Positions 28,274 to 45,689 of a stretch of 64,000 nt of DNA are shown one piece after another. This DNA comes from Candidatus Brocadia sinica JPN1 (GTDB lineage: Bacteria; Planctomycetota; Brocadiia; Brocadiales; Brocadiaceae): NCBI RefSeq assembly GCF_000949635.1, contig NZ_BAFN01000001.1, positions 1,984,001-2,048,000 on the forward strand, read 5' to 3'. How positions within the stretch are numbered: position 1 is the first letter of the stretch; each line of letters starts with the position of its first letter. The translations under genes and the position numbers were made by a program. The notes beneath the pieces are model-generated. The model was given only the letters and a program-made list of their open reading frames with translations, was not told the origin of the DNA and searched no databases.

Positions 28274-28319
28274 ATACAAATTTACAATAATTTCTAAAAT
28301 CCCAATTTCCACAGTGCGG

Positions 28320-28867: not shown

Positions 28868-28888
28868 TTACTTTGTGAAAAACTTCTT

Positions 28889-28985
28889 TTTTGTGTAAGT
28901 TTTTTACCACCCCTTCATCCCCTCCTTGCGAAGAAGGGGATGAAGGGGTGGTAAATTTGGTTGCGGCTATGCTGCGCTAGGTATT
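28889..28985. repeat. Palindromic interspersed repeat, copy 1
   Basis: TGTGTAAGTTTTTTACCACC followed by a hairpin (CCACCCCTTCATCCCC with GGGGATGAAGGGGTGG) and then TTTGGTTGCGGCTATGCTGC. The same order of elements recurs at 46435-46534. It sits downstream of the DUF5615 gene inside the toxin-antitoxin insert. Confidence 0.85.
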
Positions 28986-28994
28986 ACAATATTT

Positions 28995-29324
28995 CTATAA
29001 AAACTCTACATGGTTTACCATGTCTTTTTGTTCTGCGATATCCCAAAGCAGTTTTAACCCTCGTATTAAGCCTCCCACACTATACTTTTGCTGATGTACA
29101 TACGCAATTCCTGTATGTTCGAATTTCATTGCCATTGCCAGGAAATCGTCATCATGTGTTACAATAACAAAGTTATTTCTTGCTGCATAATCAAGCTGCT
29201 CTTTATCTGAAAGCCCCAGGTTGCCTGAATCTCTGGCAGATACAACCTTGACCCCTCTTCTTTTTAAACCTTCTGCAACTGCAACATTAACGCTCTCGTT
29301 TGTGTAAAATGCAAGCTTAGCCAC
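28995..29324 (-). CDS. DUF5615 PIN-like toxin
   Basis: 109 residues, with AFYTNESVNVAVAEGLKRRG, VVSARDSGNLGLSDKEQLDY and FVIVTHDDDFLAMA. The acidic Asp cluster THDDD fits the Mut7-C/PIN-like active site. The first acidic position is Asn/Glu (YTNES) instead of the usual Asp, so activity is uncertain. It overlaps the DUF433 antitoxin gene by 8 bp. Confidence 0.82.
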   Translation of the reverse strand: MAKLAFYTNESVNVAVAEGLKRRGVKVVSARDSGNLGLSDKEQLDYAARNNFVIVTHDDDFLAMAMKFEHTGIAYVHQQKYSVGGLIRGLKLLWDIAEQKDMVNHVEFL

Positions 29325-29640
29325 GTACTTTTTTCAAGATTGATGGTTTTTTTCTGGCAATTTTTTCAATAGCCTTCATTTTTTTCTTAATTTCCTCATC
29401 AAAAAAATCTCTTTTTTCATAATAGTATGAAAGCGCATCATGTACAGCTTCAAGCGTTAAATGCGGATGGGCGTCTATAATTTGGTCAGGAGTAAGACCA
29501 ATTCTATCATATTCTATCGCTATATCTATTACCCGTATTCTTGTACCAGAAATCACAGGACTCCCTTTTGCAATCCCAGGATCAGTGGCGATATATGGAT
29601 GATCTAATCTTTTACCTGATGTCGTTCGTTGAGTAGGCAT
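29317..29640 (-). CDS. DUF433 antitoxin
   Basis: 107 residues. IAKGSPVISGTRIRVIDIAI and LTPDQIIDAHPHLTLEAVHD are the DUF433 helix-turn-helix core; a basic C-terminal tail (KKMKAIEKIARKKPSILKK) follows. It is upstream of and overlapping its DUF5615 toxin, so antitoxin comes first here, unlike the 9.8-10.4 kb pair. Confidence 0.84.
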   Translation of the reverse strand: MPTQRTTSGKRLDHPYIATDPGIAKGSPVISGTRIRVIDIAIEYDRIGLTPDQIIDAHPHLTLEAVHDALSYYYEKRDFFDEEIKKKMKAIEKIARKKPSILKKVRG

Positions 29641-29646
29641 ACTTAT

Positions 29647-29889
29647 TTAACCTCCTTTAAATCTTTTATCATATACAGTCAAAAGTTTTATCTTCCCTTC
29701 GATTTCTACAAAAGGACATCGTAATAAACCTTTACGCGTTTTTGTCTGCGCAACAAGCGCATCCATGTCGTCAGGAACAATTCGTACAGGATAGATTGCC
29801 AAATCTTCCACTTCCTGTCTTGTAACTCCAATCCTTTTCTCCCATTCCTTCTGTCGCTCTTCCGCATTTTTTGTCCATATAATCGTCAT
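29647..29889 (-). CDS. Small DUF4258-like protein
   Basis: 80 residues. IWTKNAEERQKEWEKRIGVT, EDLAIYPVRIVPDD and EIEGKIKLLTVYDKRF fit the RelE-related DUF4258 pattern loosely. ATG 29889 has GGGGAAG upstream. It is 6 bp upstream of the DUF433 gene, so the three genes are probably one transcript. Toxic activity is only a guess. Confidence 0.5.
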   Translation of the reverse strand: MTIIWTKNAEERQKEWEKRIGVTRQEVEDLAIYPVRIVPDDMDALVAQTKTRKGLLRCPFVEIEGKIKLLTVYDKRFKGG

Positions 29890-29959
29890 ACTTCTTCCCC
29901 GGCGTCTTTTTCATAATTAAGAATGAGAGACATCTTTTTTATCCTCCTCTTTTCAGTTT

Positions 29960-30175
29960 TCAAAAAAATTTTATAAGATTATTTTGATCAGTCTGATGCT
30001 TAATTATTTCAAGTATTAATTCTCTTGTACCGTCTGTTGAACCATCATCCACAACAATTATCTCTTTGTTTATTGGAAGATCAACGAGGCATACTCTTTT
30101 TATCAAATCCATTACGGTATTTTTTTCGTTATAGACGGGTATAATAACAGATATTTTTGAAACAGAGGTGTTCAT
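29960..30175 (-). pseudogene. Truncated duplicate of the DPM1-like GT2 gene
   Basis: The first 65 residues equal the intact gene at 27411-28130 (same MNTSVSKISVIIPVYNEKNT start). Homology then ends after the codons for KHQTDQNN and a stop follows within a few codons. It is the 5' fragment left by the segmental duplication and lacks the catalytic DxD region. Confidence 0.92.
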
Positions 30176-30207
30176 TTATTTTCGCTTTTGAATAAACTAC
30201 TTTTTGT
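29978..30207. repeat. 341-bp direct repeat, copy 2, left part
   Basis: Matches 27933-28162 with a constant offset of 2045. It ends with the 8-bp target duplication CTTTTTGT (30200-30207) where the IS66-family element begins. Confidence 0.92.
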
Positions 30208-31924
30208 GTAACTATTCAGCGTATATTCGCTCATAATTGCTATGAGCGAACAAAATCAGGCAATTCGCCATGAAATAGCATCTTTAATGCCTGTCTCAAA
30301 TTTACCCCTTGTTTTCGACAAGTTGAGAGGTAGCTGCGAATGCGGCAAAAAATCCTGGCTCCCTCCAAAGAACGAAAGCAGCCCGATATTTTCTGCTGAA
30401 CCTTTGTCATCCTGATGTCGTTTTCAGCCAAATTATTCGTAAAAGGGACGTTTTTATTGTCCATAAACCTCAGGACATCATCCTCATACTTTCGTAATCG
30501 TTCCAGAAGATTTCTGGCTTTTGTCCTTTTCACTCGCCCCCTTTTCCCCTTACGGTTTGTTTCATCAGGGGGAGGGCTTTCGGCTTCTGCGTTTTGCAAT
30601 ATCACCCGGTACCTGTGCCGATATTTTTCAGACTCATCGGCGCCCAACATTCCTCCGGCATCGCATGTTGCACGATTTATCTCTTCAAGCAAGGCCTTCA
30701 TCTCTTTCGCCCACTGCTGCTTATTGTCCTCTTCCCACACACCCTCTAATTCTCTCAGGTGGTGCGCATTACAGAGCGCGTGCGTACAGGGATAGGTGTA
30801 ATACGCCTTCAAATGGTCGTGACAAAGAATCCCACGAAATTGGGGCAATATTCCTATGCTATCTATTGCCTCTGTCCCTCTCCCTTCGTGAGGATAAAAA
30901 CATGTCCACTGCCTATTGGATGCGCTATGCAACCAATATCTATCCCCGTTCTTGTTAATACTCGTTTCATCCACATGCAACACCTCTGACTTGGTGAGTT
31001 CTGCTTTGCTTTTCTCCTCAAAGATTTCCAGATATTCGTAGGCTTCCTGATTAAAATTGTACAAGGAACCTTCACTCACCGGCATCGACATCTGCTCTTC
31101 AAAATACTCCTGAATCCTCTTGTAGGGTATCAGTTGATACTGTGACATATATACTGCATGCGCCTTCAAATCCGCCCCATACTGCGCCGCCTTTGTTATT
31201 CCTTCAGGAAAGGGCGCGATAAATCGGTTCCCCTCCGCGTCCTCAACTATCTCTGCACGATACTCTGTTACCTCCCGTGAAATCTTCATATCAAACACCT
31301 GGCGCGCTTCGTAACCCACCACCGTATATTCCCCACGCGGCAACTTCCTTTGGTCTACTTTTATCACTTCCACCTTATCAGGGTTCTCAACCCTTTTCAG
31401 CGTCACCCCCTCACGACCCTTTTGTCCACCCGCCTTCCTCTCGCCCTTCGCCTTGCTTTCTCTCTTGCGATTCGGATCACTTGAGGGAGGCTTACTGCTG
31501 TTGCGACTGTTACGGTTTAAACGACCAACCAGCAGCGTTATTACTACTACCAATAACTCTACCATGGACCTCATGGCTGGCGACAGCACTTTCTCTTCAG
31601 AAAGAAGCTTCTCTACTTTTTGGAGCGTTACCTCTATGTCTATATTGTCTATCGTCAATGAATCCGCCTGTATGATGAGCCACCCATTTATTTACTGCGG
31701 CTATTATATCACAGGCTTTTTCATCCTTTTTATTGGCGCTATAAGACACGACAAAAGCACGAATTCCTCTTACCAACACCAGCCTGTCCATGTCTGTGCT
31801 CTCTCCTCATGTAGGCTGTACTAACCACCTCTACAGGCCATATATGCCACAAACTAATCCAAACGACTCTCTGTCCCGGATATCCTGTCAAACATATTTT
31901 AAAATATTTTCACTGAATAGTTAC
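30208..31924. mobile_element. IS66-family insertion sequence, 1717 bp, single-transposase type
   Basis: The ends are GTAACTATTCAGCG (from 30208) and CACTGAATAGTTAC (to 31924), inverted repeats of about 14 bp with one mismatch. CTTTTTGT flanks both sides (30200-30207 and 31925-31932), the 8-bp duplication expected of IS66. The empty target is preserved at 28155-28162. It carries one large transposase gene and no tnpA/tnpB pair, as in the ISBst12-like subgroup. Confidence 0.95.
30240..31658 (-). CDS. IS66-family transposase (TnpC-type, DDE)
   Basis: 472 residues. The N-terminal zipper-like helix and NRNSRNSSKPPSSDP segment are IS66 signatures. Acidic triad candidates are Asp in VLHVDETSINKNGD, Asp in ILCHDHLKAYY and Glu in FTNNLAENDIRMTK, and the C-terminal GCFRSLEGARIFCRIRSYLS is typical. 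The start is TTG at 31658. The frame is undamaged, so the element may still be mobile. Confidence 0.93.
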   Translation of the reverse strand: MTIDNIDIEVTLQKVEKLLSEEKVLSPAMRSMVELLVVVITLLVGRLNRNSRNSSKPPSSDPNRKRESKAKGERKAGGQKGREGVTLKRVENPDKVEVIKVDQRKLPRGEYTVVGYEARQVFDMKISREVTEYRAEIVEDAEGNRFIAPFPEGITKAAQYGADLKAHAVYMSQYQLIPYKRIQEYFEEQMSMPVSEGSLYNFNQEAYEYLEIFEEKSKAELTKSEVLHVDETSINKNGDRYWLHSASNRQWTCFYPHEGRGTEAIDSIGILPQFRGILCHDHLKAYYTYPCTHALCNAHHLRELEGVWEEDNKQQWAKEMKALLEEINRATCDAGGMLGADESEKYRHRYRVILQNAEAESPPPDETNRKGKRGRVKRTKARNLLERLRKYEDDVLRFMDNKNVPFTNNLAENDIRMTKVQQKISGCFRSLEGARIFCRIRSYLSTCRKQGVNLRQALKMLFHGELPDFVRS

Positions 31925-32043
31925 CTTTTTGTATTAAAATGCTTTTAGCAGGGTAAGCAGTTACAAGTAATTAATTGAAGCAAAGCGCACTATTTTAGTT
32001 ATTCTTCTTTTAAGATAACGCAACATTTCCCATTTTTCCTTTT
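31925..32043. repeat. 341-bp direct repeat, copy 2, right part
   Basis: Matches 28155-28273 with an offset of 3770, starting with the second CTTTTTGT. From 31961 it is the authentic 3' end of the glycosyltransferase gene 31961-32923, so this side is the original location and copy 1 carries the displaced 3' fragment. Confidence 0.92.
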
Positions 32044-32923
32044 TTTGTTCGACATAAGGCACTTCTATATGATGTGCATTTAGGACAGTGAGGCATTTGC
32101 GTAAACTCTTTAAATATTGGTCATATAAGCTTAACCCCAGTTTACCAATCTTGTAACCGAAGTACAGTCGAATCTTACATGAACTAACAATTCTTAATGT
32201 TTGAAAGTGATAAAAAACAGGATATACTTTTGTGCCTACCTTCTCCTCAAAGAATAATACATTCCAGGGAGCTAAAATTTTTTCAACTTGCTGAACGATG
32301 TGTACTATGTCACCAAATAACTCAGGCCAGTAATCCAGATATTTTTGATCACCAAATTTACCGTCTTCTATCCTAGCGAAACACCATTCCAGGCATCGGT
32401 TCTGCCACCACTTCATAACCTTTGAGGCTTGTTGAGTCTTTCTAAAAGTCATAAATTGAACACAAAACCGACCACTTGTGTGTGATTGATCATATTCTGG
32501 AGCATAGGCATGATCAGTAATTAAAACATCTTTTCTGCTCCGATCAAATTCCCTAAGCAAAATTCTTGGATCATCAAAAAAGAAAATGTCCGCATCCAAA
32601 TACGTAACGCGCTCAACACTCGGATCTCTATTAAATGCGGCTTGGGGTGCGAACGGCGTCAATGTCCAGCAGTATTCACCCAGCGTCCTTCCAGGCTTTA
32701 CGGCTAATAGCTCTTTTGTTTCAATCTCTTTAAGTGGAATTAGTGTTACGTTGGATAAGGAAATAAGCTGCAGTTGTTTTTCTGTCAGTTCGTCCATGCA
32801 TAAAATCCACAAATGAAAAGGTTGCGCATGAGTCATCAGGGAATCATGGAGCGCCATTCCTAAAGGCAAAAAATTGTGGTCAAATAAAGTAACAAAGTGC
32901 TCTGTAGACCTATTTGAATTCAT
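31961..32923 (-). CDS. Nucleotide-sugar glycosyltransferase (GT8-like fold)
   Basis: 320 residues. HFVTLFDHNFLPLGMALHDS at the N-terminus, the DxD motif VTYLDADIFFFDDP (about 95-108) and GKFGDQKYLDYW with APWNVLFF resemble GT-A glycosyltransferases that use UDP-sugars. The last codons (KWEMLRYLKRRITKIVRF) are duplicated at 28.2 kb. It overlaps the aminotransferase gene by 14 bp. Confidence 0.75.
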   Translation of the reverse strand: MNSNRSTEHFVTLFDHNFLPLGMALHDSLMTHAQPFHLWILCMDELTEKQLQLISLSNVTLIPLKEIETKELLAVKPGRTLGEYCWTLTPFAPQAAFNRDPSVERVTYLDADIFFFDDPRILLREFDRSRKDVLITDHAYAPEYDQSHTSGRFCVQFMTFRKTQQASKVMKWWQNRCLEWCFARIEDGKFGDQKYLDYWPELFGDIVHIVQQVEKILAPWNVLFFEEKVGTKVYPVFYHFQTLRIVSSCKIRLYFGYKIGKLGLSLYDQYLKSLRKCLTVLNAHHIEVPYVEQKKEKWEMLRYLKRRITKIVRFASINYL

Positions 32924-34007
32924 TAATGACCTCTATCACCTTGTTAGCCTCGCCATCGCTCATTTGAGGATGGCATGGAATGGAGAGACAACGAGCAGCA
33001 TGAGCCTCAGCATGAATCAAACCTTTCAGATCGCGTCGTATGCTTTTGCACGGTACTTGATGGTGAACAGGTATTGGATAATGAATGAGATTGTCAACTC
33101 CATGCTCCCGAAGGTAATTATTCAGACGGTCCCTTTCGTCGCATAAAATTACAAAAAGATGATAAACATGACTTTCGCTATCTACCGGTTCAGCCATTAA
33201 GTGAACAAGTGGATTTTTGATGCCATCGAAATAGGCTTTTGCAATCTCCTTGCGTCTGGCTGTGAAAAAATCAAACCAACCGAGGCGGGCCGTCAGGATT
33301 GCAGCGTGCATCTCGTCCAGACGGCTATTCAAGCCAAGTTCTGAATGATGATATCGTTGTGATTGCCCATAATTTCGCAGTACTCTTGCCTGATTCGCTA
33401 GTTCTTCAGAATTGGTGATGATTGCACCTCCATCTCCCATTGTGCCCAGGTTTTTGGTTGGATAGAAACTGTAGGCGCCCCAGTCACCGAAAGATCCGGC
33501 AACTTTGCCTTTCCATGAGGCCAAATGCGATTGCGCACAGTCTTCCAGCAAATGGATGTCGGCGTGTTTACAAAGTGCAATCCATGTGTCCATATTTCTC
33601 ACTTGCCCATAAAGATGTACAAGTAACATTGCCCGAGTATGAGAGGAAAGGCATCGTTCAACACTTGCAGGGTCTAACAAAGCTGTTATAGGATCAATAT
33701 CAGCGAGAACAGGGGTTGCACCGGCACGAATGATCGCCAGCACAGTTGCAAAGGCAGTCATTGGGGTAGTAATCACTTCATCCCCAGGTCCGATGTTAAG
33801 GGCACGCAGCCCTATCTCAATGGCATCCATCCCATTGCCCACACCAACGGCATAGCTTATCCCACAACGACTAGCCCAAGCTGACTCAAAATTCCTGACT
33901 TCATTCCCAAGAATGTACCAACCAGATTTAATCACCTTCTCGACAGCCGCAATTTCTTGCTGTATAAGCTCCGCAGGTTCTGCCTGAAAATTGTTCATTA
34001 AAATCAT
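32910..34007 (-). CDS. DegT/DnrJ/EryC1-family sugar aminotransferase
   Basis: 365 residues, PLP-dependent, transfers an amino group to a keto-sugar nucleotide. Lys185 in SFYPTKNLGTMGDGG forms the Schiff base, Asp156 in LLEDCAQSH binds the pyridine nitrogen, and VGNGMDAIEIGLRAL fits the phosphate region. A second ATG at 33998 is possible. It is 2 bp from the SDR gene upstream, which may supply its keto-sugar substrate. Confidence 0.9.
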   Translation of the reverse strand: MILMNNFQAEPAELIQQEIAAVEKVIKSGWYILGNEVRNFESAWASRCGISYAVGVGNGMDAIEIGLRALNIGPGDEVITTPMTAFATVLAIIRAGATPVLADIDPITALLDPASVERCLSSHTRAMLLVHLYGQVRNMDTWIALCKHADIHLLEDCAQSHLASWKGKVAGSFGDWGAYSFYPTKNLGTMGDGGAIITNSEELANQARVLRNYGQSQRYHHSELGLNSRLDEMHAAILTARLGWFDFFTARRKEIAKAYFDGIKNPLVHLMAEPVDSESHVYHLFVILCDERDRLNNYLREHGVDNLIHYPIPVHHQVPCKSIRRDLKGLIHAEAHAARCLSIPCHPQMSDGEANKVIEVINEFK

Positions 34008-34009
34008 GC

Positions 34010-35005
34010 TTATTCCCAGTAATAAGTTCTATTCTGAATGTAATACTCAATAGTTTGCTTCAGCCCGTCTTTAAGGGAAACACACGGCGACCATCCCAAA
34101 GATTGATTGATCTTGGTGTAGTTACTGTAATAATCACCAATATCGATTGCTTTGAGATCGGAAGGAAAGGGCACAATTTCATATATCCCATTCCGAAAGA
34201 TTTCGATCAGCAGGGCAGCCAAATTTTTCAGATTAATATATTCAGTGCTCCCCAAATTAAACACCTCACCATCTGCTTTTGGGTTAATTGCCGCTATCAA
34301 GAGCGCATCCACCACATCGCTGACATAATTAAAATCACGTAATTGCAATCCATCACCAAATACTTTAATCGGTTTTCCTTCAATTAGATTTTTCACCCAA
34401 ATTCCCAGGAATGTCTGTCGCGCATCCTTTACACGCATGCCTGGGCCGTAGGTATTGGTCAAGCGCAAAGCACAGGCTCTGATTTTATAAACATTGTTAT
34501 AGAGCAAATGATACCACTCGCCGGCGAGTTTATTAATGCCATTCACATCGACAGGACGAATTGGATGTTTTTCATCTACTGGCAGGTACTCTGGCTTACC
34601 ATAAATTTGGCGGGTACTGGCAAAAACAATTTTTATACCCGGATTATTTTTACGACAGGCTTCAAGAATGGATAACTGGGCTGAAGCATTAATATTAAGG
34701 TCGGTTTGCGGATCATTCATAGAATCTATATGACTGGTTTGACCTGCCAGGTTAAATAAATAGTCCTGTTTCTGAACAAGATACGCCATGGCGTAAGGAT
34801 CCCTAACATCGCTGATATTTACTGCCACCTGGTCTTTTATATCGTGAACATTAAAAAGATTACCACCATAGAGAGGTATGAGACTATCTGCCAATGTGAC
34901 ATTTGCATTAAGTTGAACCAATCGCCGGGCAAGCGATGAGCCAATAAAACCAAGCCCACCAGTTATGAGCACTTTTGCATCAGAAAATTTCAGGAAATCT
35001 TTCAT
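34010..35005 (-). CDS. SDR-family NAD-dependent sugar epimerase/dehydratase, Tyr-less motif
   Basis: 331 residues. The NAD motif ITGGLGFIGSSLARRL is at 14-29 and ASTRQIYGKPEYL gives the Ser/Thr position. The usual YxxxK site reads NGINK in VNGINKLAGEWYH, so the catalytic Tyr is replaced by Asn, as I recall for a recurring subfamily of sugar SDRs. RLTNTYGPGMRV and GLQLRDFNYVSDV are intact. It probably makes an intermediate for the adjacent aminotransferase. It overlaps the methyltransferase gene by 4 bp. Confidence 0.83.
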   Translation of the reverse strand: MKDFLKFSDAKVLITGGLGFIGSSLARRLVQLNANVTLADSLIPLYGGNLFNVHDIKDQVAVNISDVRDPYAMAYLVQKQDYLFNLAGQTSHIDSMNDPQTDLNINASAQLSILEACRKNNPGIKIVFASTRQIYGKPEYLPVDEKHPIRPVDVNGINKLAGEWYHLLYNNVYKIRACALRLTNTYGPGMRVKDARQTFLGIWVKNLIEGKPIKVFGDGLQLRDFNYVSDVVDALLIAAINPKADGEVFNLGSTEYINLKNLAALLIEIFRNGIYEIVPFPSDLKAIDIGDYYSNYTKINQSLGWSPCVSLKDGLKQTIEYYIQNRTYYWE

Positions 35006-35733
35006 ACCGTCTTTTTCTTTTTTAATAGAATTATACTATCCAGATATAAATCTTCATTCTTTGGTAACACCTTTGAAAGTAATTCTCCCAAAATAGTAAA
35101 AGGAGACATCAAAAAAAATGTAGTGAAGAGATTTACGAACACGTTTTTTGTGAATGTTTTTTTATAGATATAACAATTAAGCAGTTGGAAGATCACTCTG
35201 ATATCGTTGATGCTTTTTCGATATTCGATTACTTCAAAACCAGATTTTTCTAATAGATGTTTCAAACCAAAAGAAGAGTAGCGTGCATAATCAAAAGGTT
35301 GTTCATGCTCATCCCAGACAAATGGAACTGTCATAAGTAGTATTCCATTCGGTTTTAATACCCTGTATATTTCGCTTAAGAAGTCTGATGGACTAAAAAC
35401 ATGTTCAAGGACTTCATTGACAATTATACTGTCAAATTCATCGTTCTGAAACGGAAAGGTAGTTCCAGTATAAAAATAGTCGGCTTTTTTGTTTTTCCTG
35501 TTTGCAACGGCATCGAGCTCGAGACCAATGTAACTTGTTGTACTTAAAAAAAGCTTTTCATAAGGCTTCGTGCCACAACCTACATCCAAAGTTCTTCCTG
35601 TAATGAGCGGAGCCCATAGGGAAATATGCCGAAATAAGCCTTTTCTAGAAAAATAATATGGGTTAAAGAAAAGTGCCAGAATTCCTGGTTGAAATTGTTC
35701 TTTTCTTAATGCGTGCTTTATTTTCTCAATCAT
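35002..35733 (-). CDS. Class I SAM-dependent methyltransferase
   Basis: 243 residues. Motif I TLDVGCGTKPYEKLF, then IIVNEVLEHVFSPSDFLSEI and PNGILLMTVPFVWDEHEQPFD, typical of Methyltransf_11/SAM enzymes that modify sugars or lipids. A hydrophobic segment near the C-terminus (VFVNLFTTFFLMSPFTIL) may touch the membrane. It overlaps both neighbours by 4 bp, showing a tightly coupled operon. Confidence 0.85.
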   Translation of the reverse strand: MIEKIKHALRKEQFQPGILALFFNPYYFSRKGLFRHISLWAPLITGRTLDVGCGTKPYEKLFLSTTSYIGLELDAVANRKNKKADYFYTGTTFPFQNDEFDSIIVNEVLEHVFSPSDFLSEIYRVLKPNGILLMTVPFVWDEHEQPFDYARYSSFGLKHLLEKSGFEVIEYRKSINDIRVIFQLLNCYIYKKTFTKNVFVNLFTTFFLMSPFTILGELLSKVLPKNEDLYLDSIILLKKKKTV

Positions 35734-37445
35734 CTGTTTTTCAGTTCAAAAATAAAACCCATAAAAGATGAAAATCGAATATTTGATTTATCGGCTGATT
35801 CAAAATCTACAATTAATTGATATTTTTCTGAGAAAAAATTGAGAAAGTTAGTTAAATTAAAAAACCACGCGGGATAACTTGCATCATATATTTCGGGAGG
35901 GACTTTTTGCACGGTTATTCGATCCCCTCCCCTCTGTAAGAAAGGTGTTCTGTCTATAATGATATGTTCAAATCTATTTTTTATAATTGTTTCCAGCAAG
36001 GCATAAGGGTATGGAATGTATTGAAGCACACTTGACAAAAGTATTGCTTGTGGATTCTCTTTTATGATGCATTCATTGAAATCAAAGTAAAATTTTAAAT
36101 TATCATTTTCAAAAAACTTTTTCCCAACTTGCACAAAATGTTCCTGTTCCACAATACACCATTTTAATTCACTTAAATGGCTTAAAAAAAGTTTATTTTG
36201 AAAATACGATGTGCCTAAAGACCCACCGAAATCTAATAAAGTGAGCCTATTATTATTCCGCGATGCAATCCATAGCAACCCCCCTAATAAAGGCCATGAA
36301 TATTGGACTTTATCAAACAAGACAGAGTCCCGTTCACCAGATGCTTCACCGTTTTTGACTTTTAAAAGAGCATCTGTAACCTTTTTGAGAATGATTTCCG
36401 AATCATATCCGGCAGAAGCCTTTTTGGCTGCTTCCCAATCAGAATAATTTCCAAAAAAACCATATTTTGCTGTTTTATTTTTGTAAATTTTAAAAATAAC
36501 AGGTGGAGTAATTTCGCGTATGATTTGGCCAATCGTAGTTTTTTTACATATCTTTGACACTTTACCGAAAATCTTACCAAACAAGGAAACAGAAGAGAAT
36601 TTGTTTGTTCTAAAATAGTCTTCAAATATTTTTAGGGCAGATTCGTTTTCTATTATAGGAATGTGCTCGATCCGAATAGGTTTCTTAGCGATTGCCGTGT
36701 TAAAAATATCCGTTGCAGAGCAATGCGTTCCACTTTCATCATTTCCGGTATTATGGATCAACGACATGCCAGGATATAAGGTAAGCTTTTCTTTTAAAAA
36801 TAATGAAGCGTACCATCGGATTGCCCAGGAATGATTCTTCCCTTTAGCCTGATCTTTCAACATTCTTGTGTACGGGTATGTGCCGTTCAGATCAAACTTT
36901 CTCAGAAGATTATTTTTCTTCAATTCATATAAAAGCTTACTTCCATCTGTTTCAAACAAATTCCAGCCTTTTTTCCAAGTAGCCCATCCCCAACAGTCAG
37001 CGCCTCTTAAAAAAAATGTTTCTGGAAGTTGAGATTTAACTGGATAAATATAACCATGAATACTTGCAACCTTTTCCTCATCTTCATAAAATTCCAAGGC
37101 TTCATTCATGAATCTCAAAAAGTATGGGGAACTGATCATATCATCTTCAAGCACAATGATTCTGCTATAACGATTAATTATTTCTGTAACACCTGTAATA
37201 ATGGAATTCCCAAGGCCGAGGTTTTGTTCTCTCTCTACGATGTTGACGCTCTTAAAGCCTGAGATCGTTTTGATATACTTGCGTACCGCCAATACTTTTT
37301 CTTTATCAACTTCAGACTTTGGACCGTCTGAAAACACAAAAAGCTCGCTCGATTCTGCCAACTCGTTTTTCTTCAATGCCTCAACACTCTGGCGTAAATG
37401 ATAAGGACGATTATAAACAAACAATGCAATTGGCGCTAATTTCAC
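35730..37445 (-). CDS. Fusion of a GT2-like sugar transferase with a TIGR04325-type methyltransferase
   Basis: 571 residues, two domains. Residues 1-250 are a GT-A sugar transferase: APIALFVYNRPYHLRQSVEA, FSDGPKSEVDKEKV, LEDDMISSPYFLRFM and WGWATWKKGW. Residues 310-571 match the TIGR04325 putative methyltransferase type: KYGFFGNYSDWEAAKKAS, LLDFGGSLGTSYFQNK (SAM motif) and PYALLETIIKNRFEHIIIDR. The fusion suggests that one product is glycosylated and methylated by the same polypeptide. It overlaps the next gene by 4 bp. Confidence 0.8.
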   Translation of the reverse strand: MKLAPIALFVYNRPYHLRQSVEALKKNELAESSELFVFSDGPKSEVDKEKVLAVRKYIKTISGFKSVNIVEREQNLGLGNSIITGVTEIINRYSRIIVLEDDMISSPYFLRFMNEALEFYEDEEKVASIHGYIYPVKSQLPETFFLRGADCWGWATWKKGWNLFETDGSKLLYELKKNNLLRKFDLNGTYPYTRMLKDQAKGKNHSWAIRWYASLFLKEKLTLYPGMSLIHNTGNDESGTHCSATDIFNTAIAKKPIRIEHIPIIENESALKIFEDYFRTNKFSSVSLFGKIFGKVSKICKKTTIGQIIREITPPVIFKIYKNKTAKYGFFGNYSDWEAAKKASAGYDSEIILKKVTDALLKVKNGEASGERDSVLFDKVQYSWPLLGGLLWIASRNNNRLTLLDFGGSLGTSYFQNKLFLSHLSELKWCIVEQEHFVQVGKKFFENDNLKFYFDFNECIIKENPQAILLSSVLQYIPYPYALLETIIKNRFEHIIIDRTPFLQRGGDRITVQKVPPEIYDASYPAWFFNLTNFLNFFSEKYQLIVDFESADKSNIRFSSFMGFIFELKNR

Positions 37446-37454
37446 GTTATTATA

Positions 37455-38372
37455 TCACTTTGTTGAGTTGAATTTATTAGTCGCTATAACTCGAGTTACA
37501 ATAATTTTTAACAACATTTTTATTTTATTTAGTAAAAATTTATGCATTGTAATCGGTTGTTTGTGTTTGTAGATTCTGCTTATATAATTCTTTGCATTAC
37601 CCTGACAATGTAAAACATTAAATTTTATTTTATCTTTGTTTTCAAAGACTGACCCATAAGGAATGGTATTAATCCACTCAATCTTTTTTGCCCCATAACG
37701 CATCTCATAGAGCAGTTGCCCATTTGTAGGTACATTAAAATTATCATCATATGTAGAATTATTAATTATATCCGTTGTCTCTCCAATTTTGGCGTGTTTG
37801 TTCAACCTATATAAACGAAAAGCAGTCATATCACAGACTCCTCCAGGAAGGCCTTCACTTTGACGAATTCTGTAATGATCGACCATTTTGTTGTAATTTT
37901 CATTGTCCTTTCCCGTGTACATATTCATAATAAATTGACAGAAATGCTCAAGTGAAGCTGTATTATTCCAAAAAGAACAATGCCCTGAGCTTCCTGTGGA
38001 TAAAGTAAAATCGAATTCCTTAAATTTTTTAAATTCCTCTTCAATATTGAAGTAAACCAGAACATCGGAATCGGCATGGAAAAATTTTTCAATTGTATTT
38101 GATATCAAAAAATCTTTTAAGATAAACCATCTTTGAAAACAAAAAAGCTCAAAATCATAAGGATTAGTAGAAAAATGTTTATAATACCTTTTAAAATTTA
38201 TTGCATCTCTATCGTACTCTAATATATTGTGGTGATCTATAAAATCATATGTATTGTTACTTTCGTCTCCAATTAAATGTATAACTGTTTTGGGATTGAA
38301 TTTCTTAGCTTGCCTTAAGCTATAGCCAAGAAAATCTGGATTGCCTTTATGAATAAAAATAATATTATACAC
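37455..38372 (-). CDS. Putative glycosyltransferase
   Basis: 305 residues. MYNIIFIHKGNPDFLGYSLR resembles a GT-A N-terminus, and KFFHADSDVLVYFNI contains a DxD motif (DSD). CSFWNNTASLEHFCQFIMNM and GGVCDMTAFRLY complete a pattern seen in uncharacterised polysaccharide-locus proteins. The codons are very AT-rich. Donor and acceptor unknown. Confidence 0.6.
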   Translation of the reverse strand: MYNIIFIHKGNPDFLGYSLRQAKKFNPKTVIHLIGDESNNTYDFIDHHNILEYDRDAINFKRYYKHFSTNPYDFELFCFQRWFILKDFLISNTIEKFFHADSDVLVYFNIEEEFKKFKEFDFTLSTGSSGHCSFWNNTASLEHFCQFIMNMYTGKDNENYNKMVDHYRIRQSEGLPGGVCDMTAFRLYRLNKHAKIGETTDIINNSTYDDNFNVPTNGQLLYEMRYGAKKIEWINTIPYGSVFENKDKIKFNVLHCQGNAKNYISRIYKHKQPITMHKFLLNKIKMLLKIIVTRVIATNKFNSTK

Positions 38373-38524
38373 TTTGTAACAATTTAGAATTTTGAAATTT
38401 TTTGTAAGTGGTTACCTCATAGAACTTAAGTTTTTTGAGGCATTTTAAGTTAAACAATATAAACTATTGATTTATATTTCTTAGCAGGTATTTTTTAAAA
38501 ACTGAAGTAATGCAAGAGTGCATA

Positions 38525-39742
38525 TTAGAGCAATTCGCACATCATTTGTTTTTTAAAATATGAAAATCCATTTATTTGCAAAGAAGCAATATAAGCTAAT
38601 AAACTTGTATTTATATTCAACGGTAGGTACCGATAACTGTATGAGGATAAACGATTATCACATTCCTGATATAATACATCCTGTGCAAAAGTGTTCCATC
38701 GCCCGTAAGGCATCAAGTCTAATGTCATTCCCGCATGGGCAGAAGGCAACAACATATTAGAGCCATGAACTCCAATAACCAAACGACTTTCAGCGTAAGT
38801 TCTGCATGCTTCACGCTCTAAATCTTCGTTAAACTGATTAATTCTTAGGTCATCAATCCACTTAGGAAACTTTGTGGACGTACCTAGTCCTGCAATTGTG
38901 AATTTGGCATTTTGTATTTTATTACGTAGGAAGGAAAATAATTTACAAATCTTGTAATTTTGCCAGTAAAGTAAGGGTTTCATACAGTTCAACTTGCGTG
39001 CGACTCTTAATGAAAAGTCGTGGCTCCACCAGGGACGATCTTCCCGCCATATAAATGTAATTCTAAAATCTACTCGTTTAAAGTCGTGCTTATCAATTCC
39101 TGTAAAGTTTGTAATGTTAAAATCTTTGGGATGTGAGTGAGCACGGCTCACATAAATTTCTACGAAACGCTCTGATTCCTTTTGTATCAACTGGTCCAAA
39201 AGTGGGTAATGATTTTGAGCCTTTGAAAGTGGAATATTCACAGTCCATGCTTCGGCGACTCCTTGCGGTACCAACCAACGTAAAAATATTGGTACTATTA
39301 TTATAAGACCAAATTCTGGATTATTTTTGATGTATGATTCAGCATTTAACAACTTTAGAAGGCTATGTCCATATAGGTAGTCAATACAATTAAGTATAAT
39401 AACTCTTTTAAACTCTTGAAATTTTTCGACTTTAAATTCAATATCCGAATCCGTTTGGGGATTTTGTAAAGATTTCAGCAAAGGCATTCCAAACCAGCAT
39501 TTTGGCTTGTCGTCTCCAAACAGCGCATTCTTTCTTAAATCAACCTGATAAGGCATATACAGGGCATGGCCAACTTTCAAATCCTCAATGATTTCAGCAT
39601 GGCAGTGGCGACAGTTCGATACAACACAAATGTGAATGCCCTGCCACAATACTTTTTTAGGTGTGAGTACCTTGCCACAATAAGGACAATTCGACCGATG
39701 CTGAATATCCGGTTTAATCTGGATCAATTTTTTTTCTTCCAA
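38525..39742 (-). CDS. Zinc-ribbon protein with GT61-like C-terminal domain
   Basis: 405 residues. Four Cys in CPYCGKVL (res 19-22) and CRHCHAEI (about 43-46) form a rubredoxin-like zinc ribbon, unusual for a glycan enzyme. The C-terminal half has FTIAGLGTSTKFPKWIDD and RLVIGVHGSNMLLPSAHAG, the latter like the G-V-H-G-A/S motif of GT61 (DUF563) transferases. The 5' end overlaps the methyltransferase gene by 29 bp. A role in transferring a sugar to a carrier is an inference. Confidence 0.55.
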   Translation of the reverse strand: MEEKKLIQIKPDIQHRSNCPYCGKVLTPKKVLWQGIHICVVSNCRHCHAEIIEDLKVGHALYMPYQVDLRKNALFGDDKPKCWFGMPLLKSLQNPQTDSDIEFKVEKFQEFKRVIILNCIDYLYGHSLLKLLNAESYIKNNPEFGLIIIVPIFLRWLVPQGVAEAWTVNIPLSKAQNHYPLLDQLIQKESERFVEIYVSRAHSHPKDFNITNFTGIDKHDFKRVDFRITFIWREDRPWWSHDFSLRVARKLNCMKPLLYWQNYKICKLFSFLRNKIQNAKFTIAGLGTSTKFPKWIDDLRINQFNEDLEREACRTYAESRLVIGVHGSNMLLPSAHAGMTLDLMPYGRWNTFAQDVLYQECDNRLSSYSYRYLPLNINTSLLAYIASLQINGFSYFKKQMMCELL

Positions 39743-40667
39743 CTAGATAATAATTTTCTTTCAGATGATCGATTTCGTAATTCCACCAAAAATAATCTGT
39801 TCTCTTTCTTGTCAATTCTACAAAATAATCTAAATTGCTAATCTCTCCAAATTTTTTTTGATAACCGATCAGGTAATATTGAACGTTCGGAACGAGATCA
39901 AATATTTTCTTTCTAAAGCTTATAGGGATTTCACTGATAGACCATGTAGCAATAAAAAAATTAGTGTCCATTTGGTCTGATAGTTGTTTTGCCAGTTCCT
40001 CGAAATCTGAAAGCAGTACTATACTTTTTTCAATATTTGATGTAGTCTTTCTTGTAATTTTAGATGGGATACCCACGGAACTAATAAAATATTCCTGCAA
40101 AGCCGTAAACTCTGGTAAATCAAAGATAATATAACGCCCATTAAAACCTAATTGATGAATTAACCTGCACATACTACCGTATCCAGCACCAAACTCCAAA
40201 ATTTGTGACATATTTTCTATAGAGCACGATGTCTTTAGAAGTAACTGCGAAAGATGATAAGCGTGATGTATAAGAGTCCCGCTACTTTCTTTAAATGCCC
40301 AATAAGGTCTTGGATTTCCAACAGGGGATTCTTTGATCGCTTCCTTCCATCGACTCCAGACAGGAAGTTTTTGCATAAATTTAAGTACTTCAATGGGTGG
40401 CTCATAAAGCATCGTGTTTTTTATAACTTTCCAGTCAGTAAAATACCTTGGATCATTGTTCAATATCGATTCTCTGATTTGAGTTTTATTATTAAACCAG
40501 CAGGAATCAATTTCTAAATCCAACGAGGTATTTATCTTCGCAAGGCTAGTAATTCTTGAACGAAGATTACTAATTAAAATTTGTTCATCAATAGAAGGTG
40601 GATTTAATTTTGTTTTCTTGTATGTAAAATTGAAGAAAATCCTTTTGGCTTTTTCAAAAAAATTCAC
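39714..40667 (-). CDS. Putative sugar O-methyltransferase
   Basis: 317 residues. ILEFGAGYGSMCRLIHQLGF is SAM motif I, FDLPEFTALQEYF and FFIATWSISEIPISFRKKIF follow the TIGR04371-type sugar O-methyltransferase layout, and WFNNKTQIRESILNNDPRYF is an N-terminal signature. It overlaps the zinc-ribbon gene by 29 bp. Confidence 0.75.
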   Translation of the reverse strand: MNFFEKAKRIFFNFTYKKTKLNPPSIDEQILISNLRSRITSLAKINTSLDLEIDSCWFNNKTQIRESILNNDPRYFTDWKVIKNTMLYEPPIEVLKFMQKLPVWSRWKEAIKESPVGNPRPYWAFKESSGTLIHHAYHLSQLLLKTSCSIENMSQILEFGAGYGSMCRLIHQLGFNGRYIIFDLPEFTALQEYFISSVGIPSKITRKTTSNIEKSIVLLSDFEELAKQLSDQMDTNFFIATWSISEIPISFRKKIFDLVPNVQYYLIGYQKKFGEISNLDYFVELTRKRTDYFWWNYEIDHLKENYYLVGRKKIDPD

Positions 40668-40799
40668 TGTTACGAACCTCCAATTAATGACCTTAAACCA
40701 CTCGAACTATGATCATAAAAACACCTTAGTCTTATCGTAGTAGTAACTTCTTGGGAATGTAAAGAGTCTGTAGTCTGAGATATAAATAGATATGGAATG

Positions 40800-41516
40800 T
40801 TATTTTCTATCCAAATTAAAGAGATTATTAGCAATTTTCTTCGGGAATCTAACGCATTTTTTCAAGTCCTGACAAATCAATGCAAGTCCTTTTCTGAAGT
40901 TGGTTGTATCGCAATTTTCCCAAAGTTTAGTATTTATCTGTTGACAATATTGTGCAACTATTGACTTTGCGAAGATAGGCACTGCGATTATAACATCTTC
41001 AATGATCACAATATACCTACCATTATGTACCGAGGTAAGGGAGTTTGATATCATAGAAATATCCGGCCATTGATCAATCAAATGGGGGCGAGGTGGAGGA
41101 GACATAAATAGACGCGCATCATCAATGAAAATAAAATTATCGTATGAAGACTTATTTATTGTCTCAATCTCTTGAATTAATGGACATTCATCCCCTTTTC
41201 CATACGACTGGCCTCCACACCAATGGGCGTCAAGCCAGAAGATAGCCGGCGCGCCAATATTAGATAGAATTTCAGGAAGCTTATGCTTGGTATCTCCATA
41301 CAAAAACTCAATATTGTTAATGTATCCGTATTTTTGCTTGGTTTGTCTATATATGCTATCAGAGCGTTCGATCGTTACAACTTTTTCAAATAATTTACTA
41401 GCCCAGTAAGCTGTATCACCAAGAAAAGTTCCTGATTCTATGAACTTTGTAATTCTAAAAGTCCTTCTTAACTCACAAACCAACTCAGTTGGAGGTCCCA
41501 TCCGAACAATTCCCAT
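40800..41516 (-). CDS. Methyltransferase-like protein
   Basis: 238 residues. KFIESGTFLGDTAYWASKLF, VVTIERSDSIYRQTKQKYG and IFWLDAHWCGGQSYGKGDEC form the pattern of class I SAM-binding proteins common in glycan loci (E-S-G-T-x-x-G-D-T motif, D-A-H-W). Specific substrate not deducible. It is 16 bp from the flippase gene. Confidence 0.6.
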   Translation of the reverse strand: MGIVRMGPPTELVCELRRTFRITKFIESGTFLGDTAYWASKLFEKVVTIERSDSIYRQTKQKYGYINNIEFLYGDTKHKLPEILSNIGAPAIFWLDAHWCGGQSYGKGDECPLIQEIETINKSSYDNFIFIDDARLFMSPPPRPHLIDQWPDISMISNSLTSVHNGRYIVIIEDVIIAVPIFAKSIVAQYCQQINTKLWENCDTTNFRKGLALICQDLKKCVRFPKKIANNLFNLDRK

Positions 41517-41532
41517 TTACATCTCCTGCCCT

Positions 41533-42876
41533 TTACCTAAACCTCATTTCCCATGGAGTTGCCATTGCTTTTAGCATTATTCTAAGATTCTTTCGTACTT
41601 TCTCATGAAAAAAATCGACAAAAAAAACAGTGACAAAGAAAGATGCGATTGTTGCCAAAATTGCACCTCTAGATGCATACCTTGGGATTAACAAATAGTT
41701 TAAGCCTATATTCGTTATGGCCCCACTTATGGCAGTAAAAAGAGCATATTTAAACAGATTTTCATTTGTAATAAATAAGCTCTTTGCCACTCCAAAATTT
41801 GCAAAAAATAATCTTATGCTAAACAAAGCAAGTAACGCTCCTGCCATTTTGTATTCATTACCAAATAATGTTATTACAATTTGATTTGAAAATACATAAA
41901 TGGGAATTGCAGTAACTAAGAACAAAAGAAACATAAGACGATAAATATTAAGAAGTCTTTCGTAATAGAGTGATTCATTTTCTACCTTTGCACTCGATAC
42001 TTTAGGTAAAACGGAACTGTAGATTATCATTGGTATAAACCCGAAAACTTCAATTAATCGCATTGCTGCCGAATATTGCCCTACTTCTGTATCGCCGACC
42101 ATTTCACCAAGCATAACCTGATCAATCCTTGCTTGAATATAAATGGCAATTCCGGATAGAATCAGCGGCCAACTATCATTTACCAGCATTTTCGATCGAG
42201 AAATGGTAGCAATCCATGTTTTTACATAAAATCCGTTGATTCGATATACTATTACAAGTCCTACTGATCCAATGACGATTTCTGCCAACCCCGCCCAGGC
42301 GAAAACAATAAGCGGTGCTTTCACAAGGATTAAAACAATCTTGACTAGGGTAATGAGTAAAAAAGCTACATTTTTAGCATATACTGTATATTTTGACTGA
42401 ACCTGCGATTGAAACCAGAAGTCTATGACATCGAATGCCTGAAAAATCATTCCTGCTGCCGTGATGCCCACCAGCCAGCGGGTCAGGTTCTCGTGAGGAC
42501 GTAACAAGGAAACAGCTACCACTGCTAATATGAGTGTTGATACACCTCCTAAGAGCTTGAGCACAAAAGCAGTTCCAAGTATTTCTTCCTTGCAAGAAGG
42601 GTCACGCACAATGTTGCGAACCACAATCCCATCCAACCCCAGGGTGGCAAATGTACTAAATAGTGCAACAAAGGAAAGTGCATAGTTATAAAGACCAAAT
42701 TGCTCTGGCCCAAGATACCGGGCAACCCATACCCCAACTAGCAACCCCACGCCCATACGTAGTATTTTATCGACAAAGAGCCACCCTGTGTTTGCGAGTA
42801 TCTTTTGTAAGGCAGTACGACCCTCTAACCGGATACTAATAAACTGTGGTAGGAGTTTAGTTAAAATATAATTCAT
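41533..42876 (-). CDS. Oligosaccharide flippase (Wzx/polysaccharide biosynthesis protein)
   Basis: 447 residues with about 12-14 transmembrane helices of the MOP superfamily. The N-terminus NTGWLFVDKILRMGVGLLVG and GLYNYALSFVALFSTFATLG are typical of Wzx/RfbX flippases, which move lipid-linked glycan units across the inner membrane. It precedes (in transcription) the methyltransferase and glycosyltransferase genes and partners with the polymerase/ligase at 12-15 kb. Confidence 0.9.
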   Translation of the reverse strand: MNYILTKLLPQFISIRLEGRTALQKILANTGWLFVDKILRMGVGLLVGVWVARYLGPEQFGLYNYALSFVALFSTFATLGLDGIVVRNIVRDPSCKEEILGTAFVLKLLGGVSTLILAVVAVSLLRPHENLTRWLVGITAAGMIFQAFDVIDFWFQSQVQSKYTVYAKNVAFLLITLVKIVLILVKAPLIVFAWAGLAEIVIGSVGLVIVYRINGFYVKTWIATISRSKMLVNDSWPLILSGIAIYIQARIDQVMLGEMVGDTEVGQYSAAMRLIEVFGFIPMIIYSSVLPKVSSAKVENESLYYERLLNIYRLMFLLFLVTAIPIYVFSNQIVITLFGNEYKMAGALLALFSIRLFFANFGVAKSLFITNENLFKYALFTAISGAITNIGLNYLLIPRYASRGAILATIASFFVTVFFVDFFHEKVRKNLRIMLKAMATPWEMRFR

Positions 42877-43211: not shown

Positions 43212-43430
43212 TTACTTAACCTTTAAGAATTCATCAACAGTTATCCCGCTTTTCCTTATTAATCCCCTTAATAAACCAGGCGCTAATTCCTTATGATTAG
43301 GAATCGATAAGGTTGGTCTTGACTCATGATACAATATCATGTGACTGCCGGTTTGATGGTCAAGGACATAGCCAAACTTCTGAAAAATTTTCGTTGCTTC
43401 TTTACCAGAAATGTTGGAAAGAATACCCAT
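43212..43430 (-). CDS. hicA: HicA mRNA interferase toxin
   Basis: 72 residues. GKEATKIFQKFGYVLDHQTGSHMILYH contains the catalytic His of the double-stranded RNA-binding HicA fold (GSHMIL), and SIPNHKELAPGLLRGLIRKS is the family C-terminus. It begins directly after the hicB stop (0-bp gap). Confidence 0.93.
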   Translation of the reverse strand: MGILSNISGKEATKIFQKFGYVLDHQTGSHMILYHESRPTLSIPNHKELAPGLLRGLIRKSGITVDEFLKVK

Positions 43431-43649
43431 TTAAACAGTAACCTCTCCCAGGAATACCTCCTTTTCTTCTATGACTTCAAATCTCCCGTGTTTTTTTTCT
43501 ACCTCCAACCACCCCCTGATTGCGTCTTTGATATTATTTAATGCCTCGTCTAATGTCTTGCCCTGACTCATGCATCCAACAAGTTCAGGCACATCAACTA
43601 CATATCCATCATATTCTGAGTCATAACTTATTATAACCTTAAATTTCAT
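43431..43649 (-). CDS. hicB: HicB antitoxin
   Basis: 72 residues. YDSEYDGYVVDVPELVGCMSQGKTLDEALNNIKDAI is the degenerate RNase H-like HicB fold. There is no C-terminal DNA-binding extension, so it is the short form. Antitoxin-first order with hicA. Confidence 0.93.
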   Translation of the reverse strand: MKFKVIISYDSEYDGYVVDVPELVGCMSQGKTLDEALNNIKDAIRGWLEVEKKHGRFEVIEEKEVFLGEVTV

Positions 43650-43986: not shown

Positions 43987-44502
43987 CTAGCTATGGTTCC
44001 TTAAAAATCGGCAAAAAGATTCTATCTCTTCTATAAATTTTTCTAATACAGGCTCAAAATGGATAGACAATGCCTCTAGCCTTTTCTCCACAATCTCCAG
44101 CTGCCATCGTGTACCGAAGATACTAAAGTCTTCCATCTGAAATATAGCTTCGTCGAGTAAAGCAGCATACCTGTTTTGATCTCTGATAAATACGGGTATC
44201 CCAAGGACCATTGCATTATAATAAAGCATAGGTTTTCTGAAATCCAAAAAGACAGGGATGATATTTACCTCTAACTTTATTCTTCCCATGAAAGAAAGTG
44301 TTATATCTGTTATCTTCCTAAAAACCTTATCTTCGTCATCTGTTTCAGAGAAAACGATAGCAATATCTACATCCGAAGTTTCTTTTGGATATCCTCTTGC
44401 CCATGAACCATAGAGAAAGGCCATTTCGATTCTGTAAGTGTCAGCGGTTTCTTTAAAATAGTTTTCCAATATGTTTTGTAGCTCACGCTGTGAGTATAAC
44501 AT
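43987..44502 (-). CDS. MNT-type nucleotidyltransferase-domain protein
   Basis: 171 residues. FLYGSWARGYPKETSDVDIAIVF is a complete minimal nucleotidyltransferase motif (Gly-Ser, Asp-x-Asp). The C-terminal half (FQMEDFSIFGTRWQLEIVEK and EKFIEEIESFCRFL) is helical. It is probably an antitoxin-type enzyme, but no HEPN partner gene is adjacent. Confidence 0.78.
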   Translation of the reverse strand: MLYSQRELQNILENYFKETADTYRIEMAFLYGSWARGYPKETSDVDIAIVFSETDDEDKVFRKITDITLSFMGRIKLEVNIIPVFLDFRKPMLYYNAMVLGIPVFIRDQNRYAALLDEAIFQMEDFSIFGTRWQLEIVEKRLEALSIHFEPVLEKFIEEIESFCRFLRNHS

Positions 44503-44706: not shown

Positions 44707-45060
44707 CTAATCGGCAAAAATCTTTCTCATCCATTCACGCATTTTTCGTGCGCTCTGCAATGCCCTTTCAGCATCTTCTCTTTTCATAAATAACACCTTT
44801 CCGGTTCTGGCTATAGCGGTCAAAAAGGAAAATTTTTCCTGCATAAGAGCATGAAATTCATCGGGGGTATAAACAAATAAATCTATTCCGACCGTCGGTT
44901 TGATTATACGAGATACTTCCAATATCCTGTCTAAAGGCCGTTTTGTTGTCTTTTTGACTATAAGCAGGTCAATATCACTCCATTCGTGAATATCCCCCCC
45001 GGACAGAGAACCAAAAAGAATTACCTTCTCCAGCCCATAATCTCTTTTGAGGAGTTCCAC
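44707..45060 (-). CDS. MNT-type nucleotidyltransferase-domain protein, possibly with a lost start
   Basis: 117 residues from a GTG at 45060. ILFGSLSGGDIHEWSDIDLLIV is the active-site block, and KREDAERALQSARKMREW is a C-terminal helix. The frame extends upstream through NLLEEELSRI to a stop at 45099 without ATG, so the real start may be mutated or a rare codon. No HEPN partner. Confidence 0.65.
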   Translation of the reverse strand: MELLKRDYGLEKVILFGSLSGGDIHEWSDIDLLIVKKTTKRPLDRILEVSRIIKPTVGIDLFVYTPDEFHALMQEKFSFLTAIARTGKVLFMKREDAERALQSARKMREWMRKIFAD

Positions 45061-45195: not shown

Positions 45196-45400
45196 CTATT
45201 CCTTTTTGTAAATGATATCGAATACCTGGTACTTCGTCTGTATCGGGACACTGCCTTCAGTAATGAGAAGTAAATCGATATCGGAATTTTCGAGAAAATC
45301 ACCTCTTGCCTTTGATCCATAAAGTATTGCCTTCTTTTATAACAGGATAATTTAACTGGAATATATTTATCGCATCGGTCTTTTTCACCTGAAAATCTTC
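45196..45400 (-). pseudogene. Decayed nucleotidyltransferase-domain gene
   Basis: The minus strand encodes EDFQVKKTDAINIFQLNYPV, then after a frameshift AILYGSKARGDFLENSDIDL followed by LLITEGSVPIQTKYQVFDII and a stop at 45196-45198. The GSKARG...DID motif is intact but the gene is truncated at both ends, one of three such genes within 1.5 kb. Confidence 0.75.
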
Positions 45401-45595
45401 CTATGGCAAAGTGTATCCTTTATAATCAAGTGTGCCTGTTATCCTTGTCACACTATAAGTCACACTATAAGTATTTATTACATCATAAATATTATTTGAC
45501 GAAATATTTACAAACAGATAGCCTGGGAAAAGAGGTAGATCGACAAATTTTACTCTTTCTTTGAGGTATAAGAGATTATTGTTTATAACAACAAA
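45401..45595 (-). pseudogene. Remnant of a NusG-like (RfaH/UpxY-type) antiterminator N-terminal domain
   Basis: A minus-strand frame reads NNNLLYLKERVKFVDLPLFP then GYLFVNISSNNIYDVINTYS, matching the NusG N-terminal block where PLFPGY(V/L)FV is diagnostic. It stops at 45401 with no KOW domain and has no start codon. A 12-bp tandem duplication (CACACTATAAGT twice, 45449-45472) repeats YSVT. Specialised NusG paralogues usually lead polysaccharide operons, which is where this relic lies. Confidence 0.7.
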
Positions 45596-45616
45596 CGTTT
45601 ATTTTTTTAAACGTTT
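45593..45616. promoter_or_regulatory. Double AAACGTTT palindrome
   Basis: AAACGTTTA (45593-45601), six T, TAAACGTTT (45608-45616): a perfect inverted repeat whose arms are themselves palindromic. It may be an operator or a hairpin, immediately upstream of the NusG-like remnant. Confidence 0.4.
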
Positions 45617-45689
45617 ACTATTTAAAACATTTCTAAATAAAATATCAACATAAAAATTTAAAAAAGTTTAGATTCATTTAGTGCAGATA

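Follow-up and report, generated by a model that had tools for sequence, protein, structure and literature searches.

A relic of a UpxY-type NusG paralogue before a Brocadia glycan locus, and a Brocadiaceae leader RNA that may have outlived its presumed antiterminator

The closest described relatives of the element reported here are specialised paralogues of NusG. In Bacteroides, the UpxY proteins are NusG paralogues encoded in capsule operons, and the available excerpt of the corresponding study presents them as activators of the operon in which they reside (PMC7593976). In Bacillus velezensis, the dfn leader contains, according to an extract of the LoaP work, a small hairpin that is bound by the NusG paralogue as well as a terminator hairpin that is read through (PMC12691694). 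RfaH is likewise a specialised NusG paralogue and is recruited, in the portion of its literature considered here, at an operon-leader signal named ops (PMC2871177). As for glycan antitermination by NusG, RfaH, UpxY or leader RNA in anammox bacteria, Brocadia, Kuenenia and the Planctomycetes, the titles and first lines of the abstracts found leave the subject untreated.

The window, i.e. the whole stretch of 64,000 nucleotides of Candidatus Brocadia sinica JPN1 that was analysed, contains a relic of such a paralogue on the strand of the flippase gene that opens a glycan locus, 2.7 kb before that gene (Table 1). The minus-strand frame 45598-45404, in which KERVKFVDLPLFPGYLFVNISSNNIYDV is present, translates as TFVVINNNLLYLKERVKFVDLPLFPGYLFVNISSNNIYDVINTYSVTYSVTRITGTLDYKGYTLP and then meets a stop at 45401-45403. 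An initial annotation had recognised in this frame the signature of the NusG N-terminal domain. This holds for 45562-45404, which reaches 42.9 bits (E 4e-12) with a UpxY profile in a six-frame translation of the window, and fails for the first 12 residues (45598-45563), which are leader DNA. The profile was built from 12 relatives with the relic fragment excluded and was run on all window frames of at least 25 aa; the runner-up frame obtained 7.0 bits, and the top score among ten shuffled windows was 11.0 bits. General libraries also returned the NusG match for the translated frame, with Pfam NusG (E 3.4e-4, 21.5 bits, slightly below the cut-off of 22.2) and with NCBIfam UpxY (E 1.9e-5, 24.7 bits against a cut-off of 100), the latter ranking before RfaH (E 0.002) and LoaP (E 0.0076) in NCBIfam, where all three are far below their cut-offs. 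The best full-length alignment with an intact UpxY protein of the family gives 44.6% over 65 columns, the first 12 (leader) columns being counted, while the DNA of the relic matches that of relatives at 78-81% over 73-79 bp. With respect to NF033644, the family of UpxY-type NusG paralogues, the relic has the NGN-type domain, in part only, and its strand and position would place it at the head of a glycan operon, toxin-antitoxin-like genes intervening; since it is a fragment and does not reach the whole-protein cut-off (24.7 versus 100 bits), it is classed as a relic and not as a UpxY member. Judged by these sequence comparisons, the frame 45562-45404 is a homologue of the N-terminal domain of UpxY-type NusG paralogues.

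On the minus strand, the leader 5' part (45662-45563) is followed by the UpxY part (45562-45404) and by a broken nucleotidyltransferase gene from 45388, leader and UpxY thus standing in the same order as at the intact loci of relatives. Inspection of the frame confirmed that, as annotated, the C-terminal KOW domain and the start codon are gone: the start region is missing, and beyond the stop the nucleotidyltransferase remains begin. The leader 5' half is fused to about codon 44 of UpxY, at the junction 45563/45562. In the alignment with the UpxY-bearing relative G030, about 198 bp separate the junction points (5135 and 5334 in L071). Relative to G030, the deletion has removed the 3' arm of hairpin 1, hairpin 2, the start codon and about 43 codons, and the first 36 bp of the annotated frame are thus leader. 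A short repeat, AGAGAC, near both deletion ends in G030 could have seeded the event.

Table 1. Features of the relic, its leader and the neighbouring genes (window positions).
Feature	Position	Strand	Remarks
Leader remnant	45563..45662	minus	Model positions 4-103 of 161 (nhmmer); boxes kept, hairpin 1 3' arm and hairpin 2 deleted
Paired operator-like boxes TAAACGTTT-N7-TAAACGTTT	45593..45617	minus	The genome has three exact sites, this one included
UpxY-type NusG paralogue relic	45404..45562	minus	Middle of the NGN (N-terminal) domain, about residues 44-92 of 168; without start and KOW half
12-bp in-frame tandem duplication (YSVT twice), inside relic	45447..45470	minus	Missing from the 12 intact relatives aligned
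Broken nucleotidyltransferase (NTP_transf_2/Polbeta) gene	45229..45388	minus	Adjoins relic on its 3' side
Nucleotidyltransferase-domain ORF	44707..45060	minus	Between relic and glycan locus
Nucleotidyltransferase-domain ORF	43987..44502	minus	Between relic and glycan locus
HicB/HicA toxin-antitoxin pair	43212..43649	minus	Between relic and glycan locus
Polysaccharide flippase (Polysacc_synt)	41533..42876	minus	First glycan gene after relic
Glycan locus	17518..42876	minus	Flippase, epimerases, aminotransferase, methyltransferase, glycosyltransferases

Regarding the surroundings, 18 ORFs of the glycan locus were run against Pfam, five of them without match, and an IS66 transposase ORF lies inside the locus at 30240-31658. 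Upstream of the relic are rubrerythrin-like, aminoacyl-tRNA-editing-domain and flavin reductase genes. Several further observations were made in this neighbourhood. The stretch 45690-45875 carries a frame of 61 aa that starts with TTG and gave no Pfam match; its DNA is conserved in the genus genome G001, which has two similar stretches (L082 7884-8026 and 15451-15628). At 46435-46541 lies a dispersed repeat of about 100 bp with a cccctccttgcgaaggagggg core and many copies across the genomes of the genus. In G018, the box-only leader of the MarR gene described below has beside it, on the opposite strand, the end of a rubrerythrin-like gene (L208 3857-3958) that is related to the window gene 45898-46386, and a nucleotidyltransferase gene like those of window 43212-45388 also follows a leader in G025.

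The annotation had also proposed that the locus may have lost its own antiterminator, which is supported by the homology of the relic to UpxY, by its place before the flippase and by the distribution of the family. A search of the source genome for another nusG paralogue yielded one NusG gene of 187 aa (PF02357, E<=0.001), and since it scores only 51.5 bits with the UpxY model (cut-off 100), it is taken as the housekeeping NusG. A second, weak NusG-like frame of this genome (YPGYLFVN plus stop; L003, G000:C1:1031713-1031808, E 0.048) is probably due to chance, and the surrounding 20 kb (L081) contain no leader. Over the 59 genomes searched, the UpxY model exceeds its cut-off in 25, namely in none of the 11 genomes of the window's genus, in 11 of the 22 Brocadiaceae genomes outside it and in 14 of the 26 from other families of the order; a copy at a contig edge in G016 reaches 95.3 bits, slightly below the cut-off. 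Relics of UpxY are detected by tblastn (E<=1) in five of the 11 genus genomes.

In several UpxY-bearing relatives, the gene occupies a slot whose order is sugar epimerase, FMN reductase, phosphomannomutase-like gene, 292-aa gene, leader, UpxY and MarR_EPS-like regulator (70.3 bits, below the MarR_EPS cut-off of 88), then glycan or other genes. With the 292-aa gene, the leader and the MarR_EPS-like gene as markers, the slot was located in eight of the 11 genus genomes. All eight keep 104-219 bp between leader and MarR where relatives hold the 0.5-kb UpxY gene; the spacing with an intact UpxY is 587 bp in G020, 847 bp in G030 and 1049 bp in G017. N-terminal remains of UpxY are recovered by tblastn in the slots of G003, G005 and G006, those of G000, G001 and G009 are visible in DNA alignment only, and the slots of G002 and G008 align partly with the middle of the UpxY gene. 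As the ends of these remains differ and those without a tblastn match are recognised by position and DNA alignment, one ancestral loss is likely, short of proof; the protein was probably lost early in the genus. No MarR match at E<=1e-10 is present in G004 and G010. In G007, the MarR_EPS-like regulator looks broken (G007:C181:5013-5219, 64% identity, internal stop), a full leader being kept elsewhere in that genome. Pairwise comparison of the eight slots gave, in every one of the 28 pairs, a higher identity for the RNA leader (72-97%) than for the relic spacer (42-88%), with 69-94% for promoter and boxes and 53-90% for the third codon positions of MarR, which indicates that the hairpins were kept at most sites while the adjoining gene decayed. 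The leader of the G002 slot, only 72-82% identical to the other slot leaders, is weakening.

The leader consists of a -35-like TTGACA (TTGATA in the window), paired TAAACGTTT boxes, hairpin 1, i.e. TCTCTC...GAGAGA with a loop of ATCTCCCAAT or ATCACCCAAT type (read by eye in a 30-copy alignment), and a G+C-rich hairpin 2. The three exact paired boxes of the source genome all lie inside leader copies; searches with up to three mismatches gave totals equal to the control, so that only exact sites count. Within the window, the leader-RNA model (R1) found no match. Folding z-scores are between -5.9 and -8.3 for five of seven leaders, the others being L115 (-3.18) and L116 (-1.66). On 30 leader copies in alignment A4, 93.8% of the cells are paired and 10 cells carry double-sided changes, against a mean of 2.9 in shuffles (0/500 shuffles), whereas further pair types show no excess (17 versus 16.5). 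As many as 8 double-sided cells also arise in slid controls, but at 35-60% pairing. Alignment A4 was fitted to the leader structure; the unfitted A2 has 91.4% paired and again 10 double-sided cells (1/500 shuffles). Since similarity searches supplied the copies from which the covariance model was made, its recovery of the same 30 copies is not independent.

Concerning hairpin 2, the most terminator-like form seen is that of the UpxY leader of G025 (Kuenenia), at whose end six T come after hairpin 2 (L068 4420-4451); most of the other leaders read do not have this ending, so that hairpin 2 may there be a pause or processing site. Neither a sense-strand promoter nor a terminator turned up at the leader in scans of the G000 (L120) and window sequences, and no Rfam 15 gathering score was reached, the four sub-threshold matches belonging to unrelated families (L071 4900-5300; one leader). 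The idea that hairpin 2 locks the ribosome-binding site was dropped: in the six UpxY genes measured, its GGAGG precedes ATG by 10-21 nt, a spacing close enough for L065 and L069, both of Kuenenia type, at most, and several glycan operons have no long ORF starting near hairpin 2. Upstream sequences were also folded for eight UpxY genes that do not belong to the leader group (seven from other families and that of G021) and for the UpxY gene of G039; no shared motif was seen by eye.

Full leader RNAs, for which a line of over 55 bits was drawn in this analysis, precede UpxY genes and some glycan operons. They are present in 10/11 genus genomes (all but G010) and in 10/12 family genomes with UpxY outside the genus, the exceptions being G016, at a contig end, and G021, which has UpxY without leader. 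None was found in the ten family genomes without UpxY outside the genus, in a search with stricter filters and with several of the leaderless family genomes being incomplete; four of these ten have matches of 27-30 bits, below the line. The 26 genomes of other families, 14 with UpxY included, are equally devoid of full leaders, G056 reaching 33 bits. These counts exclude the sub-55-bit matches of many genomes and the box-only copies, i.e. those of G018:C3, weakly of G011 and, in the genus, of the window, G006:C12 and G005:C196, the last before a flippase-like frame (by eye). In G018, UpxY and MarR are located on different contigs, UpxY with a full leader and MarR with the box half only (model positions 5-89); in G011, where MarR is present and UpxY absent, MarR is preceded by a weak box half (22.4 bits). 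As the RNA model finds no hairpins at the MarR gene of either genome, these patterns suggest that the boxes go with MarR and the hairpins with UpxY.

Leaders that are neither before UpxY nor in the slot comprise 12 full ones, nine of them in the genus, and the window remnant. Glycan genes follow within about 3.5 kb downstream in 12 of these 13 (L128 judged by eye), namely flippases, carbamoyltransferases, GDP-mannose dehydratases or a Polysacc_synt_2 protein, the exception being L122 in G025, behind which lie nucleotidyltransferase genes. G003 carries a full leader and UpxY residues 1-57 immediately upstream of a flippase that shares 53% identity with that of the window, and in G004, a leader and UpxY residues 10-39 precede another flippase, which is 2.8 kb away. 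Together with the window relic, flippase loci hence hold three dead leader-UpxY pairs. The syntenic site of G001 has a leader, in a genome with no UpxY match. Finally, a second full leader exists elsewhere in three (G018, G025 and G028) of the ten UpxY genomes with a full leader, so that an action of UpxY on other operons is backed by few cases.

Taken together, these data make it likely that the relic is the remnant of a gene for a UpxY-type processive antiterminator which, with its promoter-leader, headed this glycan operon, a reading held jointly with the following scheme for the leader. In relatives, the leader would be the site where UpxY is loaded, probably signalled by hairpin 1 and its conserved ATCTCCCAAT-type loop, and UpxY would let RNA polymerase pass hairpin 2 and later terminators in its own operon and, in some genomes, in one more; loading and terminator passage are proposed by analogy with the LoaP dfn leader and the capsule-operon-activating UpxY proteins. 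The paired boxes are the probable operator of the MarR_EPS-like regulator. In the genus, the UpxY protein would have disappeared, the boxes and, at most sites, the hairpins being retained. Since the hairpins outlive UpxY in ten genomes, they cannot serve UpxY alone and must there serve with other factors, e.g. the housekeeping NusG or NusA; the hairpins may be a UpxY loading/attenuation signal now kept for another use. In the window, where the hairpins were lost with the gene, the operon should start from the surviving promoter without an attenuation step. The broader proposal, that the leader RNA, so far seen only in Brocadiaceae, represents a new UpxY loading/attenuation element beside a MarR-type operator, orphaned in one genus and taken over by another factor, is put forward as a serious if tentative possibility.

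A different owner can be imagined for the leader, whose hairpins and boxes would together form a cassette of the MarR_EPS-like regulator, with UpxY as a mere operon passenger. The persistence of leaders without UpxY in 10/11 genus genomes would agree with this idea, as would the eight genus slots whose leader is now immediately upstream of the MarR gene and the box half found alone before MarR in G018, weakly in G011, which fits a MarR operator. However, the MarR genes of these same two genomes lack the hairpins, whereas the UpxY gene of G018 has them; besides, full leaders are retained in G004, without MarR match, and in G007, with its broken MarR, and outside the genus they are found only with UpxY. 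This explanation was given slightly more weight before the box-half results of G018 and G011, was then lowered, and is now regarded as rather unlikely.

It could also be that the relic arrived independently, e.g. together with the nucleotidyltransferase genes, and at no time controlled the glycan operon. The relic indeed adjoins a broken gene of this type, the exceptional leader of G025 precedes such genes too, and the leader of the syntenic G001 site occurs in a genome that is free of UpxY matches. Nevertheless, the leader and UpxY relic of G003 stand before a related flippase with no nucleotidyltransferase genes between, and the glycan genes downstream of 12/13 leaders point the same way, which makes a separate arrival quite improbable. 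As to a NusG-like frame produced by chance, the Pfam score slightly below its cut-off and the weak, mixed matches of a PDB sequence search with the relic, among them RfaH at E 0.87, could be invoked; given the distance from 42.9 bits to the next frame and to the shuffles, and a leader-gene order identical to that of intact relatives, its probability is negligible.

Extracellular polymers of anammox bacteria matter for granules and biofilms, and the remnant of a UpxY-type gene with its leader bears on their control. A conserved leader that the antiterminator gene shares with some glycan operons far from it offers a concrete candidate for the recruiter of such UpxY proteins, and a genus without the protein but with most leaders constitutes a natural knockout, which separates the leader's own role from what the protein adds. 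If the orphaned-leader reading is true, glycan operons retain the antiterminator's leader without the antiterminator; more widely, a family-specific leader RNA would have outlived its presumed antiterminator in one genus.

Compared with RfaH and ops, as far as the cited portion describes them, the present system has in common a specialised NusG paralogue and an operon-leader signal, at which recruitment would take place. It differs in that no ops element exists at the leaders of the window and G030, where no ops-like match was seen with up to one and up to two mismatches, respectively (match totals elsewhere near chance). With LoaP and dfn, in the terms of the extract cited, it shares a leader with a small hairpin and a further hairpin, whose role here is proposed by analogy. 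Unlike the UNCG-type hairpin of dfn, hairpin 1 has a ATCTCCCAAT-type loop, no UNCG-type recruitment hairpin being seen in this loop in the 30-copy alignment, and the window copy is without hairpin; besides, the intact family protein L070 obtains a higher score with the UpxY model (125.7 bits) than with that of LoaP (67.9 bits). From the UpxY systems of Bacteroides it is distinguished by the dead copy of the window, the MarR_EPS-like regulator as neighbour and a leader with paired boxes and two hairpins. It resembles them in having a NusG paralogue encoded within a glycan operon, with L070 as an intact family member that passes the NCBIfam UpxY cut-off of 100 bits.
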